Positions 5,901-35,112 of a stretch of 35,183 nt of DNA are shown in pieces. Location: contig MEQB01000066.1 of assembly GCA_001770015.1 (NCBI GenBank), positions 1 to 35,183 of the forward strand, given 5' to 3'. The notes under the pieces are model-generated. The model was not told the origin of the DNA. It did not search any database and saw nothing but the letters and a program-made list of their open reading frames with translations. Both the position numbers and the translations under genes were made by a program. Numbering within the stretch: the stretch's first letter is position 1; every line of letters starts with the position of its first letter. The stretch is from Bdellovibrionales bacterium RIFOXYC1_FULL_37_79 (GTDB taxonomy: Bacteria > Bdellovibrionota > Bacteriovoracia > Bacteriovoracales > Bacteriovoracaceae).

Positions 5901-7214
5901 ATGACTGACGATGATAAAAAAGAAAAGCTTCCTTCCCCTAAAGAAATTCAAAATGAGATCGAAGCATTGATGCGAAATAAATTTGGAAAAAATATACAAA
6001 TCATAGCTCAGCCTTTCGACTTTAATGATGCCTCTAAACCTGAACAAGACAAACAAATGGATGAGGATATAATTGACAGTAAGGAGTTTGATCTAAATTT
6101 TAATCTGACCCCAAAACAAGTAAAAGAATTTCTTGATCAATATGTTATTAAGCAAGATGAAGCCAAAAAGGCTTTAGCAATTGCGGTTTGTGACCATTAT
6201 AACCACGTCAGGGAATGTCATTTAAATAAGCTAAGTGGAACTACCGATAATGAGGATGACAATTATTCCAAACAAAATGTTCTAATGCTGGGGCCAACCG
6301 GAGTAGGAAAGACTTATTTAGTTAAAACTTTGGCCAAATTAATTGGTGTTCCATTTGTTAAGGCCGATGCCACCAAGTTTACTGAAATGGGATATGTTGG
6401 TGCCAATGTGGATGATTTGGTCAGAGATCTGGTGCGCATTGCGAAGGACAATATTGAACTCGCTCAGTATGGCATTATCTATTTTGATGAAGCCGATAAA
6501 ATTGCTGGAAATAAAAATACAGTTGGGAAGGATATAAGTGGTCGAGGGGTTCAATATGCCCTACTCAAGCTGATGGAGGAGACTGAAATTGATTTAAGAG
6601 GGGCACATGATGTTGCCAGCCAGATGCAAGCATTTATGGATTTTCAAAAAACCGGCAAACTAACTCCCAAAACCATAAACACCAAGCATATTCTTTTTAT
6701 TGTTAGTGGTGCTTTTTCAGGACTTGAAGAGTTGATTAAAAAAAGGCTCAAAGTCAGAACCATAGGTTTGAATATAACGGAAGAAAAAAATATTATAGAT
6801 GAAATGAATATTTTAGATAATGCTGTTACTAAGGATTTTATAGATTTTGGTTTTGAGCCTGAATTTATAGGAAGGTTGCCGGTTAGGCTTTCTTGTGTGA
6901 AGCTTTCGGCAGAAGATCTTTATAAAGTCCTAAAAGATTCCCGAGGATCGATTATTAATCAGTATGTGCAATCCTTCAAGTCTTTTGGCTTGCAAGTTAC
7001 GTTTGAAGATGAGGCGTTAGTGAGAATTGCCCAGCTTGCTTACTTGGAAAATACGGGGGCCCGTGCCTTGATGACGGTTTGTGAAAAAATATTTAGATCT
7101 TACAAGTTTGAGCTGCCGGGAACCACGATTCAATCTTTCAAGGTAACCAAGGCATTAGTGGATAATCCCGAACAAGAACTCCAAGCTATTTTAGCTCGTT
7201 CGATACATAATTAA
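5901..7214 (+). CDS. clpX: ClpX-like AAA+ unfoldase without the zinc-binding domain
   Basis: 437 aa from the ATG at 5901, which has GGAG six bases upstream; an in-frame ATG at 5889 lacks this. Walker A is GPTGVGKT (131-138) and Walker B ends YFDEADK (194-200). The pore loop GYVG is at 164-167, the GRGVQ arginine at 215 and the sensor-2 GAR at 386-388. IGL at 288-290 sits where ClpX carries the IGF ClpP-docking loop. The first about 65 residues are acidic and have no C4 zinc finger, which ClpX normally uses for adaptor and substrate recognition. It should unfold substrates with ATP, probably for ClpP. It may be a second ClpX with its own substrates; a standard ClpX could exist elsewhere. Confidence 0.88.
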   Translation: MTDDDKKEKLPSPKEIQNEIEALMRNKFGKNIQIIAQPFDFNDASKPEQDKQMDEDIIDSKEFDLNFNLTPKQVKEFLDQYVIKQDEAKKALAIAVCDHYNHVRECHLNKLSGTTDNEDDNYSKQNVLMLGPTGVGKTYLVKTLAKLIGVPFVKADATKFTEMGYVGANVDDLVRDLVRIAKDNIELAQYGIIYFDEADKIAGNKNTVGKDISGRGVQYALLKLMEETEIDLRGAHDVASQMQAFMDFQKTGKLTPKTINTKHILFIVSGAFSGLEELIKKRLKVRTIGLNITEEKNIIDEMNILDNAVTKDFIDFGFEPEFIGRLPVRLSCVKLSAEDLYKVLKDSRGSIINQYVQSFKSFGLQVTFEDEALVRIAQLAYLENTGARALMTVCEKIFRSYKFELPGTTIQSFKVTKALVDNPEQELQAILARSIHN

Positions 7215-7803
7215 AAATATACTTTCGAAATTCTAAAATCGTTTGCTCGGACTGTAAGGCTAAGAGGGTCTTGTTTTCAGGTAGGATATCATAGAGTAGC
7301 TTATCAAAAGAGTATTGAATGGTTTGCATGCCAAGGTAAAGTTGAATAAAAAAATCAATATTCTGGTTGAAGTAGTGCTCAATGAGGGCAAAAACGTCTT
7401 GATGATTGTCGTGAGCCTTACATCCCTGGCATATGCCATGATTTTCGATGTATTGGACATGACAAAAGGTTTCTTGACCAATAATAAATTCTCGTTCCTT
7501 GATATCTTCTGAGAATTTATCCATCATTTCGATGGCCAGATGGGGATGTTGTCCAAGCACGATGAAAAGTTTTTCATAAAACGTTAAATGGAGCGATATG
7601 AAAATAGTATCTTCCAGTAGATATTCCAGATATTCCTGGGTGGAATCGGAGGTTTCTTCCAGTTTTTTTAAGTCTTCTATGGCAAGGACAAAAGGTGAGT
7701 CAGGATGATTAATCATTTCGTCAAAGTAATGATTAAGCAGGGAAGGAGGGATCACATTTTCCGCCTTGGCAGGGGACTTTAAAAAATGACTGAAAATTTG
7801 CAT
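7186..7803 (-). CDS. Conserved hypothetical cytoplasmic protein with CxxC
   Basis: 205 aa; the ATG at 7803 has AGAGG seven bases upstream. The protein is soluble and largely helical, with no signal peptide. A CQGC motif (NHGICQGCKAHDNH) with nearby histidines and an upstream FCHVQYIENH could bind a metal, but this is only a suggestion from spacing. I recognise no family. Its 3' end overlaps the end of the convergent ClpX-like gene by 29 bp, and its 5' end is divergent from proC across a 66-bp gap. Confidence 0.7.
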   Translation of the reverse strand: MQIFSHFLKSPAKAENVIPPSLLNHYFDEMINHPDSPFVLAIEDLKKLEETSDSTQEYLEYLLEDTIFISLHLTFYEKLFIVLGQHPHLAIEMMDKFSEDIKEREFIIGQETFCHVQYIENHGICQGCKAHDNHQDVFALIEHYFNQNIDFFIQLYLGMQTIQYSFDKLLYDILPENKTLLALQSEQTILEFRKYIFNYVSNELK

Positions 7804-7869: not shown

Positions 7870-8673
7870 TTGAAGATTAGTGTCATAGGAGGAGGTGTGA
7901 TGGGTGAAATTATCACTCGATCGATCCTTAATCAGCAAATTGCCAAACCCTCAGAAATGATGGTGGTGGATATAAATGCTTCCAAAAGAAGAATTTTGAA
8001 AAAAAAATACCTGGTGGCAACGAGTAAGTCGGCCCTTAAAGCGGTTTTTAACTCGGAGGTGGTGATTATTTGCTTAAAGCCACAGGGTTCTAATCAGGTT
8101 TTAACAGCGCTCAAAGGTAAAATTAAATCTGATGCCCTGGTCATATCCATAATGGCCGGGATCAGGCTGGCATCTCTTGAAAAGTGGCTTGGCCATCGTA
8201 ATATCGTTAGATCCATGCCCAATATTTCATCTAGGATTGGAGAGGGGATGACGGTATGGTTTGCCAATAAAAATGTACAAACCTTGCATCTTTTACTGGC
8301 CCAAATGATTTTTCAAAGTTTTGGAAAAGAATTACGGGCCATTGATGAAAATTTGATTGACTCGGCAACGGCGGTTTCAGGTTCGGGACCCGCTTATATT
8401 TTTTATATTGCGGAAAAACTGATTAAAGCATCTATTGATCTTGGGTTTGATGCAAAAGAGAGTTTGAAATTAATAAGGCAAACCTTTCAGGGGGCAATGG
8501 ATTTGTGGGATGAAACAGCGCTTTCACCTAAAACCTTGCGGGAGATGGTGACCTCGGAAAAAGGTACGACGGATGCTGCTATTAAAACTTTTGAAAGACT
8601 GAAAGCTGGAGAAGTGTTAACCAAAGGTGTTCAAGCGGCTTTTAAAAGGGCCAAAGAATTGGCCAATGAATAA
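7870..8673 (+). CDS. proC: Pyrroline-5-carboxylate reductase
   Basis: 267 aa, the usual family length. The start is TTG at 7870, supported by CAAGGAGAATCG just upstream; no ATG lies nearby. The N-terminus ISVIGGGVMGE is the Rossmann glycine motif for NAD(P)H. A central MAGIRLASLEKWL stretch and VSGSGPAYIFYIAEKL (about 173-190), then GTTDAAIKTF, make up the P5C reductase signature and active-site region. It reduces 1-pyrroline-5-carboxylate to proline in the cytoplasm. The DsrE-like gene follows after 9 bp, probably in the same transcript. rocD, which makes the P5C precursor from ornithine, is about 1.3 kb away on the other strand. Confidence 0.93.
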   Translation: MKISVIGGGVMGEIITRSILNQQIAKPSEMMVVDINASKRRILKKKYLVATSKSALKAVFNSEVVIICLKPQGSNQVLTALKGKIKSDALVISIMAGIRLASLEKWLGHRNIVRSMPNISSRIGEGMTVWFANKNVQTLHLLLAQMIFQSFGKELRAIDENLIDSATAVSGSGPAYIFYIAEKLIKASIDLGFDAKESLKLIRQTFQGAMDLWDETALSPKTLREMVTSEKGTTDAAIKTFERLKAGEVLTKGVQAAFKRAKELANE

Positions 8674-28726: not shown

Positions 28727-29530
28727 CTACTTTTGGCACGAAGGACAGTAGTAAGTTCCTCTTTGGTTTAATAAAATGATTTTCACTTTAGTTTTTTTAC
28801 ATAGCATGCAGACGGGTTGATGAAAAACCACCAGGTTTAAAATTCCTTGTCCCTGTTCGCCATGAGTATCTTTGTACCCACCATGGAAGGTTACACCTCT
28901 TGATTTAATGGATAGCTGGGTGACTTTTATGATGGCCTTGTAAAGTTTGATGGATTCAGTTTTTCCAATTTTATGGCAAAGTTTCATTGGTCTGATTCCG
29001 GCATGGGCACAAATTTCGTTGGCCATGTAATTACCAATCCCTGCAAATAAACTTTGTTCCAGCAGCAGGGGTTTTATTTTTCTATGGGGATGTTCAAGTA
29101 GCACATTGTAAAGATAGTTATGGGTAAAACTAGCGGTTGATACATCCACCCCCAGCTTACTTAAAATTTTATCTTTTGTTTTAAGCCCTACGACATACAG
29201 AAAACCAAAACGTCTTGGATCTACATAGGTAAGATGATTTTTTTCGTTAATTAATTCTAAGTGTTTGTGTTTTTCGTAGATAGCGTTTGCCGAAATTCGC
29301 CACGATCCACTCATGCCGAGGTGGGAGAGTAGGAAGTGATGTTCTCCTAGGTGAAAAATTAAAACTTTTCCGTAGCGGGAGATGTCTCGGATGGTTAAAT
29401 TTTTTAAAGAAAATTCTTCCAGTTTTAAAAGTTGGGTTAAATGTTGTGAACTTTTTATTTCTTTTATTTTAAAAGGCAGAATTTCCTTTAATTGATTTTT
29501 GATAGTTTCGACTTCGGGTAGCTCTGGCAT
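28727..29530 (-). CDS. mutM: Formamidopyrimidine-DNA glycosylase
   Basis: 267 aa, typical length; ATG at 29530 with AAAGAGAT upstream. The N-terminus MPELPEVETIK gives the catalytic proline and glutamate. ISRYGKVLIFHL contains the conserved lysine, LSHLGMSGSW the wedge/base-flip region and DPRRFG the usual loop. AGIGNYMANEI is part of the helix-two-turn-helix. The C-terminal zinc finger is intact: VCMLC, then YYCPSC. It removes 8-oxoguanine and other oxidised bases and cleaves the strand by beta/delta elimination. It is first in a two-gene minus-strand unit with the Memo-AMMECR1 gene. The putative integrative element starts just upstream, so its promoter region abuts the element end. Confidence 0.94.
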   Translation of the reverse strand: MPELPEVETIKNQLKEILPFKIKEIKSSQHLTQLLKLEEFSLKNLTIRDISRYGKVLIFHLGEHHFLLSHLGMSGSWRISANAIYEKHKHLELINEKNHLTYVDPRRFGFLYVVGLKTKDKILSKLGVDVSTASFTHNYLYNVLLEHPHRKIKPLLLEQSLFAGIGNYMANEICAHAGIRPMKLCHKIGKTESIKLYKAIIKVTQLSIKSRGVTFHGGYKDTHGEQGQGILNLVVFHQPVCMLCKKTKVKIILLNQRGTYYCPSCQK

Positions 29531-29583: not shown

Positions 29584-29601
29584 TCACGACTTTACACGAC
29601 T
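29584..29601. repeat. CACGACT pair next to the integrase (possible att or arm site)
   Basis: TCACGACT, three bases, CACGACT. It lies just beyond the integrase stop. A near-identical arrangement with a two-base spacer is at 35096-35112. Both could be element ends or integrase-binding sites. The match is short and the spacer differs by one base, so neither role is established. Confidence 0.4.
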
Positions 29602-29605
29602 TTTA

Positions 29606-30847
29606 TTAATTATTTATAGCATTTTTAAAACTCGAAAGCGATATGACATTTTCAAATGGTACAGTTTGGGTAACGTCATCTTCTCTTTCTTTACGAATAT
29701 GATTCATAATTTTCTGGGAAAATTCTCTTTGGTCATCTTCATTGCAGCTAGAATAATGATCAGCAAGTTTTAAATCTTTGTGGCCTGTCATAGCAATGAC
29801 TGCATCAAGGCCTCCACCGACTTTCCTGGCCAGTTTTGCCATTCCATGCCTTAGTATATGCGTTCCAGAGTAAGGAAGCTTTCCTTTCTTCTGGGCGGCC
29901 CTATAATTAATTTGAATGGTACCGTAATTTAATGGACGACCTTCTACATGAAAAACAAAATCATTACCTTTTATTTTAAAGGCCTCTCTTCTTTTTAAAA
30001 TCTCCATAATCTCATCTGTGATGTATACAGGCCTTGCTTCTCTATTTTTAGGAAAAGGCTTAAGTTCTAAAAATGATTTACTCGTTTGATCCCAAATACA
30101 GGTATGTTTTATTAACAGCCTTTTGTTTTGCTGGTCAATATTACTCCACTGAAGTCCTGAAACCTCTCCAATCCTACCAGCAGTAAAAAACTGCATCATC
30201 GCAAGTTCTCTATACAGTGGCATTAAATATTCAAAGAATATAAATGCATGTTTTAGATCAATTTGCTTTTTCTTATCAGGAAGAGGTTTTATGAAACCCA
30301 ATTTTCGATGTTTTCTTTTTATTGGGCAAGTTAAATGTTGAGCTTCTTGTTCAAACTGTTCACTTTCCTTATACCAATTAAAAATAGTTACAAACATGTT
30401 AAGCTCATTATTTAAGTTACATCTTCCGGCCTTACCACGTCCTGAATTTTTATAATCAACGGAGCTGAACTTTTCTACCCAATGTTGTACCCAGCTAGTG
30501 ATTTTAGAAGGTGTAATCTTATCCATTGGTAGATGCTCTAAAATTTGGAGTAGAGTGTATCTTCTGTGCCAAATAGCTTTTGTACTTGTTGCTAAATTAG
30601 GAAAGTGCTGTTCTTTCATAGTATTCCATACAAATGCTAGGGTAGAATACTTTTGTTCAACATTTTCTTCATTTATCTCAGAAGAAATACCATCAAAATG
30701 TTTTCGCCATTTTTTTGCGTCATAAAGGTTAGAAAATACTTTATTATGTACTTTCCCTTTAATTCTTTTTTCAGCAAAAAATTTTCCTGTTTTGTTATTT
30801 TTGTAAATACCAGTAGTAACTCTTTTTAAACAATCTCTAAAATTCAT
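29606..30847 (-). CDS. Tyrosine-type site-specific integrase
   Basis: 413 aa from the ATG at 30847, seven bases after AAAGGAG; earlier ATG and GTG codons overlap that site. The N-terminal part (about 1-60) reads as an arm-binding domain (TTGIYKNNKTGKFFAEKRIKG), followed by a core-binding domain (about 65-170). The catalytic residues are in place: R225 in TAGRIGEVSGLQW, H330 and R333 in HILRH, H356 in TGHKDL and the nucleophile Y365 in ADHYSS. It should cut and rejoin DNA at att sites to insert or excise an element. The Xis-like gene ends two bases upstream, and its end holds the ribosome binding site, so the two are coupled. Confidence 0.92.
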   Translation of the reverse strand: MNFRDCLKRVTTGIYKNNKTGKFFAEKRIKGKVHNKVFSNLYDAKKWRKHFDGISSEINEENVEQKYSTLAFVWNTMKEQHFPNLATSTKAIWHRRYTLLQILEHLPMDKITPSKITSWVQHWVEKFSSVDYKNSGRGKAGRCNLNNELNMFVTIFNWYKESEQFEQEAQHLTCPIKRKHRKLGFIKPLPDKKKQIDLKHAFIFFEYLMPLYRELAMMQFFTAGRIGEVSGLQWSNIDQQNKRLLIKHTCIWDQTSKSFLELKPFPKNREARPVYITDEIMEILKRREAFKIKGNDFVFHVEGRPLNYGTIQINYRAAQKKGKLPYSGTHILRHGMAKLARKVGGGLDAVIAMTGHKDLKLADHYSSCNEDDQREFSQKIMNHIRKEREDDVTQTVPFENVISLSSFKNAINN

Positions 30848-30849
30848 TT

Positions 30850-31104
30850 TCATTCTCCTTTTAACCATTCAATGATTTCACTTGGAATGAAAATGAGCTT
30901 CTTTTTGCGTCCTCGTCGATATGGAACTTCACCTTTGCTGACTAAATTATAAATTGTCCCTTTTGCATATTTGGTGAACTTACATACTTCATCTATTCCC
31001 CATATTAATTTGTTAAAGAGCGTAAGCGAACCTATTAGTTCACGGTCGTCACTATACTGCGTGGATTTAATTTTGTAATCAGTTTTTATGTTGTTTTCAG
31101 ACAA
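30850..31104 (-). CDS. Helix-turn-helix excisionase/AlpA-like protein
   Basis: 84 aa; the start is TTG at 31104 with GGGGAGAA six bases upstream. Residues about 33-82 are a MerR-like or AlpA/Xis winged helix: GIDEVCKFTKYAKGTIYNLVSKGEVPYRRGRKK, then FIPSEIIEWL. This single-domain layout is typical of excisionases and small regulators beside tyrosine integrases. It probably binds att DNA to favour excision, or controls integrase expression. Its stop (TGA) lies two bases before the integrase start, and the SD of the integrase is inside its last codons. The first 30 residues are polar and of unknown role. Confidence 0.85.
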   Translation of the reverse strand: MSENNIKTDYKIKSTQYSDDRELIGSLTLFNKLIWGIDEVCKFTKYAKGTIYNLVSKGEVPYRRGRKKKLIFIPSEIIEWLKGE

Positions 31105-31130: not shown

Positions 31131-31541
31131 CTAAACCAGTTGGGCAATATTTAATTTCTTAACCAAAAATTTTCCAAGGGTAATACCCCCTCTCGTTTTT
31201 GCTTTATACTCATTAAAAAACCGCTCGACCTTTTCCATTTTAGTCATACTTGCCGCTTGAATCTTTTTCATGTCTTTGGAATTAATTTTAGTGATTCCCC
31301 AAATCGCCAAGTCTTTAAAAGTTATTTTACGTCCGTACTCTTTATTATTTGCCCTCTCAAGCAAATCAAGCACCTTCCTAAGAACTTTCAAATCTCTTCC
31401 CAGATCAACTCTAAATCTGGTCTGCTCCTTGTTTATTTTGAACACTGCTTTATTATTTTTTAACTTTTGATCTATCTTTTTTTCTTTCACTTTCCTAACT
31501 AATCCATCCAACAAACTATTTTTATCATCCTTACCAATCAT
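31131..31541 (-). CDS. Unknown basic protein in the integrase operon
   Basis: 136 aa; GGAG precedes the ATG at 31541. The protein is rich in lysine and arginine, soluble and helical, with a middle stretch DLGRDLKVLRKVLDLLERANN and a C-terminal GGITLGKFLVKKLNI. I recognise no family. Its position, 26 bp upstream of the Xis-like gene and immediately next to the repeat-rich zone at 31570-32130, suggests a DNA-binding accessory, such as a repressor, a replication factor or a recombination-directionality partner. None of these can be shown from the sequence. It is the first gene of the unknown-xis-integrase transcript. Confidence 0.65.
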   Translation of the reverse strand: MIGKDDKNSLLDGLVRKVKEKKIDQKLKNNKAVFKINKEQTRFRVDLGRDLKVLRKVLDLLERANNKEYGRKITFKDLAIWGITKINSKDMKKIQAASMTKMEKVERFFNEYKAKTRGGITLGKFLVKKLNIAQLV

Positions 31542-31571
31542 TTATTCACTCCTTACTTACTTACTTTTTTC

Positions 31572-31716
31572 AACTCGCCCCTGCTATTTTCTTATACCTT
31601 CAGCCTTTTTCAGCGTCTTTTTGACTATACCCATCACACTGGTGGGAGGGGGATAGTCAAAAAACGCGGTCAAATAAAGGGCCGAATTTAAAGACAAATT
31701 CAAGAAGGGGCGAGTT
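31572..31716. repeat. 11-bp inverted pair enclosing the operon control region
   Basis: AACTCGCCCCT at 31572-31582 and its exact reverse complement AGGGGCGAGTT at 31706-31716 lie 134 bp apart, centre to centre, and enclose the stem-loop at 31613-31667. They could be paired operator sites for a dimeric regulator or the arms of a larger DNA structure. Confidence 0.75.
31613..31667. repeat. Long imperfect inverted repeat upstream of the integrase operon
   Basis: GCGTCTTTTTGACTAT (31613-31628) pairs with ATAGTCAAAAAACGC (31653-31667) with one base bulged. Inside, CCC faces GGG, giving an almost continuous stem. It lies about 70-125 bp upstream of the first operon gene. Possible roles are an operator, a terminator against incoming transcription or a recognition structure for the element. 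Confidence 0.7.
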
Positions 31717-31720
31717 TTGC

Positions 31721-31749
31721 ATTCTCCAGTATTCTCCAAGTATTCTCCA
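31721..31749. repeat. Three ATTCTCCA direct repeats
   Basis: ATTCTCCA occurs at 31721, 31731 and 31742, with 10 and 11 bp between starts, so about one helical turn each. All three lie on one face of the helix, as expected for cooperative binding of one protein. The last copy runs into an AT-rich stretch. Confidence 0.75.
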
Positions 31750-31978
31750 TTTTAGAAAATAAAATTTGGCCCAAAATACTTTCATTTCTCTACGTCATAA
31801 AATTATTCAGTGCTCATAGTTCTACCTCCCGTAATCTTTTTTTAACTTTTCTAATTTTATATAAGGCAAGCCACATGCCAGTTTTGATTTTTAACCAATT
31901 GCTCGCTAACCACTTGAAAAAATAATAATTAATTATTTTTTGAAGATATTTTTAATTTCGGATTACTGCAGGGAATTT

Positions 31979-32034
31979 TCTCAAAAATGAGACTCCAGTC
32001 TCAAAAATGAGAAAAAAGTCTCATTTTTGAGACT
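31979..32034. repeat. Triple palindromic cluster TCTCA-AAAA-TGAGA
   Basis: Three copies of a 14-18-bp element are present: two direct (31979-31993, 31997-32012) and one inverted (32017-32034). Copies 2 and 3 form a 16-bp perfect inverted repeat with a four-base spacer. TGAGACTCCAGTCTCA between copies 1 and 2 is itself a palindrome. Several exclusive hairpins are possible, the last followed by TTTT. Confidence 0.85.
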
Positions 32035-32101
32035 TTTACAAGAAAAAGAAGGTTTAGAAAAAACCAATTTTCAATTTGAATTTTTTTTAATTTTTAATCA
32101 A

Positions 32102-32128
32102 GTGGGCCATAAATTCGCTATGGCCCAC
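32102..32128. repeat. Perfect 10-bp-arm hairpin
   Basis: GTGGGCCATA and TATGGCCCAC flank a seven-base loop (AATTCGC). The stem is the most GC-rich in the zone. No T-run follows directly on either strand, though the minus strand continues AT-rich, so a terminator role is only possible. Confidence 0.75.
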
Positions 32129-32482
32129 CGTACAGAGTATCCCCGTTTATATCATTGCACTGGAAATTTCGTTTTATCTACTGTCCCATAGAACATATGA
32201 ACATTTGGGTTGATGGAACTGAATTATTTTATATAGGAAACTTAATTTTTTTGTCAATATTATCATCTAATCTTTCAAAGACAATCTTAAACATTTTATT
32301 TGTCCCATGCTACAGCATATCCATACTATTAGAGATATCTTTTTCTAGCATTAAAAAACTTCTAAACTTTGCAAATATTTTCATGATCGCAATATTAACC
32401 CCAATTGCACGCTGACTTCTGGAAATACCTGACATGAAATCATGGCGAGACCATTCTCAGTTAAAAACAAGGGAAGTCGTCT

Positions 32483-35095: not shown

Positions 35096-35112
35096 TCACG
35101 ACTATCACGACT
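35096..35112. repeat. CACGACT pair at the right side of the element
   Basis: TCACGACT, two bases, CACGACT. It resembles the pair at 29584-29601, next to the integrase, in the same orientation. If these are ends, the element is about 5.5 kb. The difference in spacer length argues for caution. Confidence 0.4.

Follow-up and report, generated by a model that had tools for sequence, protein, structure and literature searches.

The repeat cluster beside the integrase operon of Bdellovibrionales bacterium RIFOXYC1_FULL_37_79 is, judged from comparison of related loci, most likely a transfer origin (oriT) of a kind widespread in Bdellovibrionota. The stretch of DNA analyzed here, referred to as the window, is 35,183 nt long and makes up the complete contig G000:C66 in an assembly of 74 contigs; the element carrying the cluster runs off its right end. 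We consider it likely that positions 31570-31750 are a MOBC-type oriT and that the window element, inserted at the mutM 5' end, is a relaxase-less IME moved in trans by related elements. As far as the contig shows, the element no longer encodes a DNA-nicking enzyme of its own, and it probably relies on one supplied by other elements. A transfer origin was among the functions that a preliminary description had suggested for this region, and it is supported by a conserved site next to MOBC-like relaxase, T4SS and coupling-protein genes, with direct repeats and a covarying hairpin.

All of the repeats listed in the preliminary description were present. An exact 11-bp inverted pair (AACTCGCCCCT at 31572-31582 and AGGGGCGAGTT at 31706-31716, 93% over 14 nt) flanks an inner stem-loop (31618-31639/31642-31663) and is followed by three copies of ATTCTCCA at 31721, 31731 and 31742 (start-to-start distances of 10 and 11), an AT-rich palindrome (about 31913-31945), three copies of TCTCAAAAATGAGA at 31979, 31999 and 32019, the third of them inverted, and a hairpin with GGGCCATA/TATGGCCC arms (about 32104-32127). 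Both the inverted-repeat fold and TCTCAAAAATGAGA exceeded chance: as single-stranded DNA, 31570-31720 (minus strand) folded with -33.6 kcal/mol compared to -14.0 +/- 2.6 kcal/mol for shuffled sequences (z -7.6, 0/200), and three copies of TCTCAAAAATGAGA were found where 0.03 were expected. ATTCTCCA is not rare, with 5 copies across the entire window compared to 2.1 expected, and its unusual trait is the tandem 10/11-nt spacing. The cluster had been taken as one set. Its pieces are real, but it is a composite: 31570-31750 and 31803-32035 are parts of one mobilization operon, whereas 32095-32206, which contains the GGGCCATA hairpin, is a short repeat that also occurs at unrelated loci on contigs C2 (beside an ORF6N gene), C70 and C6 of the same assembly. 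The hairpin at 32104-32127 is unrelated to the putative oriT, and the iterons, the hairpin, the AT-rich palindrome and the 32.1-kb hairpin represent more than one functional unit.

The three TCTCAAAAATGAGA palindromes (31979-32032, not assigned to a strand) are operator-like, lie upstream of the old relaxase gene/operon promoter and are kept in contig C62. They form a separate operator-like cluster, and it is probably there, and not in the rest of the region, that the earlier suggestion of a complex operator fits. In the corresponding position ahead of the relaxase gene, contig C29 (L050 10330-10560) has different palindromes, of the TTCCCAANNTTGGGAA type (by eye); the TCTCAAAAATGAGA triplets of the window and C62 and the TTCCCAANNTTGGGAA type of C29 are putative operators that are specific to the lineage and perhaps immunity-like. 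Rfam returned nothing at the gathering threshold, and a sub-threshold match to TD-2 RNA at 31942-32036 (plus strand; 39.5 bits compared to a cut-off of 48.7) rests on the TCTCAAAAATGAGA palindromes. Four further candidates were rejected: a tRNA or attP at the cluster (the integrase-proximal att candidate is at mutM, 2 kb off), an integron attC (no such sites), a retron or type III antitoxin RNA (neither reverse transcriptase nor toxin nearby), and a plasmid iteron origin (no Rep found, and the basic protein encoded beside the cluster is absent from plasmids).

Read on the minus strand, 31570-31750 follows a conserved plan, in which an 11-nt-period direct-repeat array (31721-31749; three copies of ATTCTCCA/TGGAGAAT) precedes a nested inverted repeat about 145 nt long (31570-31720), whose outer arms are the 11-bp pair and whose inner hairpin core spans 31606-31675. 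Across 30 diverse sequences of the inner hairpin, compensatory changes occurred in 10 of 14 pairs, 96% of cells were paired compared to 69% after shuffling, and double changes were seen in 117 cells compared to 38. The covariation score was 0.688, compared to 0.192 for shuffled sequences and at most 0.204 when the alignment was slid. G-U accounted for only 3 of 420 cells, and this near-absence is more in line with selection on a DNA hairpin or on the symmetry of the DNA than with an RNA. TGAC/GTCA and an AC at the loop base never varied, and the 5' arm consists of a polypyrimidine tract that is strand-specific. The sequence of the outer arms differed greatly between lineages, but their complementarity was kept. 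Just 5' of the hairpin, 57 non-redundant loci showed an 11-nt periodicity (z 10.9 at lag 11, 7.0 at lag 22 and 4.5 at lag 33), and the sequence of the direct repeats depended on the lineage: TGGAGAA is common to the window, C62 and genome G127, and another stretch 5' of the hairpin is common to contigs C34 and C29 (both by eye). The region combines inverted and direct repeats with a conserved core, as expected of an oriT, and the direct-repeat array is a candidate binding site for a relaxase or an accessory protein.

A search of the same genome with the 609-bp region identified partial copies on C62, C29, C34, C9 and C2, and the unit common to the first four is 31542-31716, an imperfect palindrome. 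We also built a covariance model, R1, from the inner hairpin and ran it within the phylum Bdellovibrionota. It detected nine copies in this genome (the window, C62, two on C34, C27, C29, C9, C6 and C3), the top-scoring of which was the window hairpin (63.8 bits, minus strand). The copies on C34 and C9 are without the basic gene; on C34 (L051), two oriT-like hairpins (7200-7269 and 8332-8402) lie 1.1 kb apart on a contig with neither a relaxase nor a basic gene. R1 hairpins were present at an E-value of 1e-6 in 76 of the 129 genomes of the taxonomic family, and a relaxase-like gene, RR, was present in 77 of the 129; phylum-wide, R1 matched 110 of 291 genomes. By pattern plus folding, the inner hairpin was found at 80 of 86 loci having the basic gene (72 distinct sequences, including three copies from this genome), and the remaining loci include mis-called starts and contig ends. 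Among the matches listed, 92 of 144 hairpins had a listed RR gene on their 5' side, in the same orientation and at a distance of 69-270 nt (median 97). The other 52 include several that adjoin divergent, unlisted RR genes (L123, L124, L127, L132, L134), some at contig ends and some true relaxase-less cases. Outside the family, 12 of 13 sampled hairpins adjoined an RR gene with a PD...ExE motif, and the named matches of RR came from Bacteriovoracaceae, Halobacteriovoraceae and Bdellovibrionales MAGs.

In relatives the structure is usually found some 100 nt downstream of the relaxase-like gene and just upstream of the basic-protein gene, within a module of the order T4SS-T4CP-relaxase-hairpin-basic-SSB-Xis-Int. 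As annotated on L041, TrbL-like, VirB9, VirB10, lipoprotein and VirD4/TraD-type genes lie upstream of RR, and genes for the basic protein, SSB, an Xis-like HTH protein and a tyrosine integrase downstream, all co-oriented with it. The structure adjoins relaxase and transfer genes in relatives, as expected of an oriT; the window differs in having lost the relaxase gene. In 20 relatives RR was 229-260 aa long (one truncated by a contig end), and the gap between RR and the basic gene held a same-plan hairpin wherever it was fully delimited. Fifteen divergent RR members shared an invariant HD, PD, ExE and K, with the motif order PD...ExE..K. The MobC profile NF041423 matched 12 of the 15 (best E-value 3.8e-7) and PF13814 (Pfam Replic_Relax) matched 7 (best E-value 5.2e-7), below curated cut-offs where shown. 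Profile scores were 16.8 and 23.6 bits compared to the NF041423 cut-off of 200, and RR is therefore a divergent relative of MOBC and not a certified member. Its best plasmid matches were Bacillus proteins annotated as "replication-relaxation family protein", mostly on mobilizable plasmids; a relaxase search in phages found none. AlphaFold2 (pLDDT 77) predicted an N-terminal winged helix and, after it, an alpha/beta domain with PD-(D/E)xK topology. In a fold search residues 1-84 matched MarR-like proteins with Z of about 10, consistent with a winged helix, and the top rows of a Foldseek search with whole RR included YaeQ, PaqCI and BstEII at low TM-scores. MOBC relaxases are related to PD-(D/E)xK nucleases (PMC5714925, PMC12857230). 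Taken together, the weak profile matches, the motif and the predicted fold suggest that RR is a divergent MOBC-type relaxase.

Within the window, three minus-strand genes follow the hairpin: those for the basic protein (31131-31541), for an HTH_17/AlpA-like, Xis-like protein (30850-31104) and for a tyrosine integrase (29606-30868). The basic protein is the hairpin's conserved neighbor, encoded downstream of it, and has relatives in 66 of 129 family genomes; AlphaFold2 gave a poor helical model (pLDDT 63), and the protein may serve as a relaxosome accessory factor. On the other side of the hairpin, the stub of a deleted relaxase gene (31765-31817, minus strand) became apparent when the window was aligned with C62 and with the intact genes of C29 and G127. 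What remains of RR is its RBS (31825-31830), a five-codon ORF from the ATG at 31817 to the stop TAA at 31803 (stop included) and a C-terminal scrap (about 31765-31789), and the deletion junction is nearly the same in C62. The preliminary description stated that no gene is present in the repeat region, which is correct, but only because the relaxase gene found here in relatives has been reduced to this stub. Compared to C62, the basic, HTH and integrase genes were intact, with dN/dS of 0.44, 0.27 and 0.24, respectively; by this measure all three are under purifying selection (0.24-0.44). The operon is mosaic, as dS differed between the genes. No relaxase, coupling-protein or pore gene was found in the window, the element's right end lying beyond the contig. 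The window carries an integrase and Xis, as a relaxase-less IME would, and has neither the T4SS nor the relaxase that an ICE encodes.

The integrase subfamily was located at the 5' end of mutM in four genomes (the window, L035, L125 and L149). A candidate att core lies in the first mutM codons (CGGGTAGCTCTGGCAT, 29515-29530, plus strand) and resembles att-like repeats in genome G115 and at the end of C62 (C62:78-93). CACGACT occurred 6 times in the window compared to 1.0 expected, and included a pair at the int end (29585/29595, spanning 29585-29601) and a pair near the right end (35097/35106, spanning 35097-35112), both on the plus strand. As possible integrase arm sites, these pairs suggest an element of about 5.7 kb with its right att just past the contig; a second mutM-like core was not found in the window before the contig end. 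GTGAAAT repeats at the contig end (35119-35155) resemble sequence rich in GTGAAA that precedes the att-like site on C62. Genome G115 contains an RR-less Int-Xis-hairpin element (about 59.8-64.7 kb, about 4.9 kb long) bounded by att-like repeats that match the first mutM codons, and further repeats are found at 77.0 and 80.2 kb. This mutM locus with four att-like repeats (L154/L155, 59.8-80.2 kb) is a probable tandem array of small islands. Relaxase-less Int-hairpin loci were also found at L118, L120, L121, L122, L130 and L131.

We propose that the integrase and Xis would excise the element, and that a MOBC-like relaxase, composed of a winged helix and a PD-(D/E)xK nuclease, would use its winged helix to bind the direct repeats with their 11-nt period, either by itself or together with the basic protein, and nick one strand within the conserved inner hairpin. 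A coupling protein and T4SS would then export the nicked strand. Within the window, the relaxase and all pore genes of the element are gone, and the integrase, Xis, the basic protein and an intact putative oriT are kept; the element would be moved in trans by related elements. A helper-driven process had been suggested from the window alone, and is supported by the missing relaxase, the presence of RR elsewhere in the genome and the relaxase-less Int-oriT loci of relatives. RR genes in this genome are located on C29, C3 and C6, and of these contigs only C6 also has a coupling protein. No VirB10 gene was found in the assembly and a VirB4 search gave ATPase look-alikes only, so the pore would come from outside or be encoded in the missing 4% of the assembly. 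As the hairpin beside RR on C29 has another repeat type, this genome showed no matching helper that carries TGGAGAA repeats. The element on C6 (L106 2526-7842) comprises an integrase, an HTH protein, a 120-aa protein, the hairpin, RR, its own coupling protein and a sigma-factor-like gene, and no pore gene was seen within it.

The same gene losses could mean that the window element is an immobile remnant of a decayed ICE with a real oriT, a reading that agrees with ours on the site but not on mobility. The relaxase stub, the missing T4SS genes of the window, the C34 and C9 copies without basic gene and the failure to find a pore gene in the assembly are all consistent with decay. However, the integrase, Xis and basic ORFs are intact and constrained relative to C62, the window hairpin is the best-scoring copy of the genome, and similar relaxase-less loci recur in relatives; we therefore regard an immobile remnant as rather doubtful. 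It is improbable that the region is solely regulatory, acting as operators or as a leader/attenuator of the basic-xis-int operon with the basic or relaxase-like protein as repressor. In most loci the structure does lie directly 5' of the basic-protein gene on the transcribed strand, and there are promoter-like matches upstream on the minus strand, but these are no more frequent than expected by chance. Furthermore, hairpins adjoin Int without a basic gene, in L146/L147 the hairpin is instead 5' of the relaxase-like gene, and covariation almost without G-U is unlike an RNA attenuator; an oriT role and autoregulation are in any case compatible. Replication of an excised circle by the rolling-circle mode, started here by the relaxase-like protein, is a quite remote prospect: the replication origin proposed earlier finds nothing in its favor beyond the family name replication-relaxation (PF13814) and the listing of MOBC TraX among multifunctional relaxases (PMC5714925), whereas the genes of the operon include those for T4SS proteins and a coupling protein, and the window is without an initiator.

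Favoring a mobilizable element with a MOBC-type oriT, we tentatively extend this reading to the phylum. The hairpins could represent an oriT class read largely as folded DNA (a nested one-strand hairpin) by divergent PD-(D/E)xK relaxases, with lineage-specific repeat "addresses", that serves complete ICEs and many small relaxase-less hitchhikers in predatory bacteria. To our knowledge, MOBC relaxases have received less study than most other relaxases. R1 identifies candidate oriTs in about 38% of the sampled phylum genomes and allows hitchhiking elements to be found without any protein marker, and site choice and nicking by a PD-(D/E)xK relaxase become directly testable. The open-licence literature yielded no description of such oriTs or conjugative elements in Bdellovibrionota, and as far as we found, three points are new: the plan of an oriT built on this hairpin, its association with divergent MOBC-like relaxases, and its wide distribution in Bdellovibrionota.

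The system in relatives resembles the MOBC systems of pAD1 (TraX) and CloDF13 (MobC) in its predicted relaxase with a winged helix and a PD-(D/E)xK-type domain. TraX of pAD1 likewise contains a winged helix; the five direct repeats to which it binds are 70-120 bp away from nic, and the 11-nt array parallels this site (PMC12857230). The C6 element pairs a relaxase with its own coupling protein and no detected pore, like MobC plasmids and streptococcal IMEs (PMC5704250), and so resembles CloDF13-type mobilizable elements. In contrast to pAD1 and CloDF13, RR falls short of the curated MobC cut-offs, the putative oriT takes the form of a large nested hairpin that covaries and has a conserved TGAC-polypyrimidine-AC core, and the system belongs to Bdellovibrionota and includes an SSB and a small basic protein. 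A partial parallel exists with the IME SGI1 (MpsA/MpsB), which is reported to require a small RNA and accessory proteins besides its oriT for mobilization (PMC9299015, PMC6414798); unlike in SGI1, Mps proteins were not found here and the hairpin covariation is of the DNA type and not the RNA type. Relaxase-less IMEs that carry an oriT alone, or an oriT plus an accessory factor, have been described as a class (PMC5704250; iOriT in PMC11389934). MGIVflInd1, MGIVchHai6 and MGIVmi1, the latter two with MobI, share with the window element a tyrosine integrase, Xis and an oriT, carry at most an accessory factor and no relaxase, and need a helper (PMC5704250), as the window element presumably does. 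It differs from them in being related to the MOBC type, sited at mutM, small and probably arranged in tandem arrays. By its anatomy, the window element fits the oriT-plus-accessory-factor sort of relaxase-less IME.
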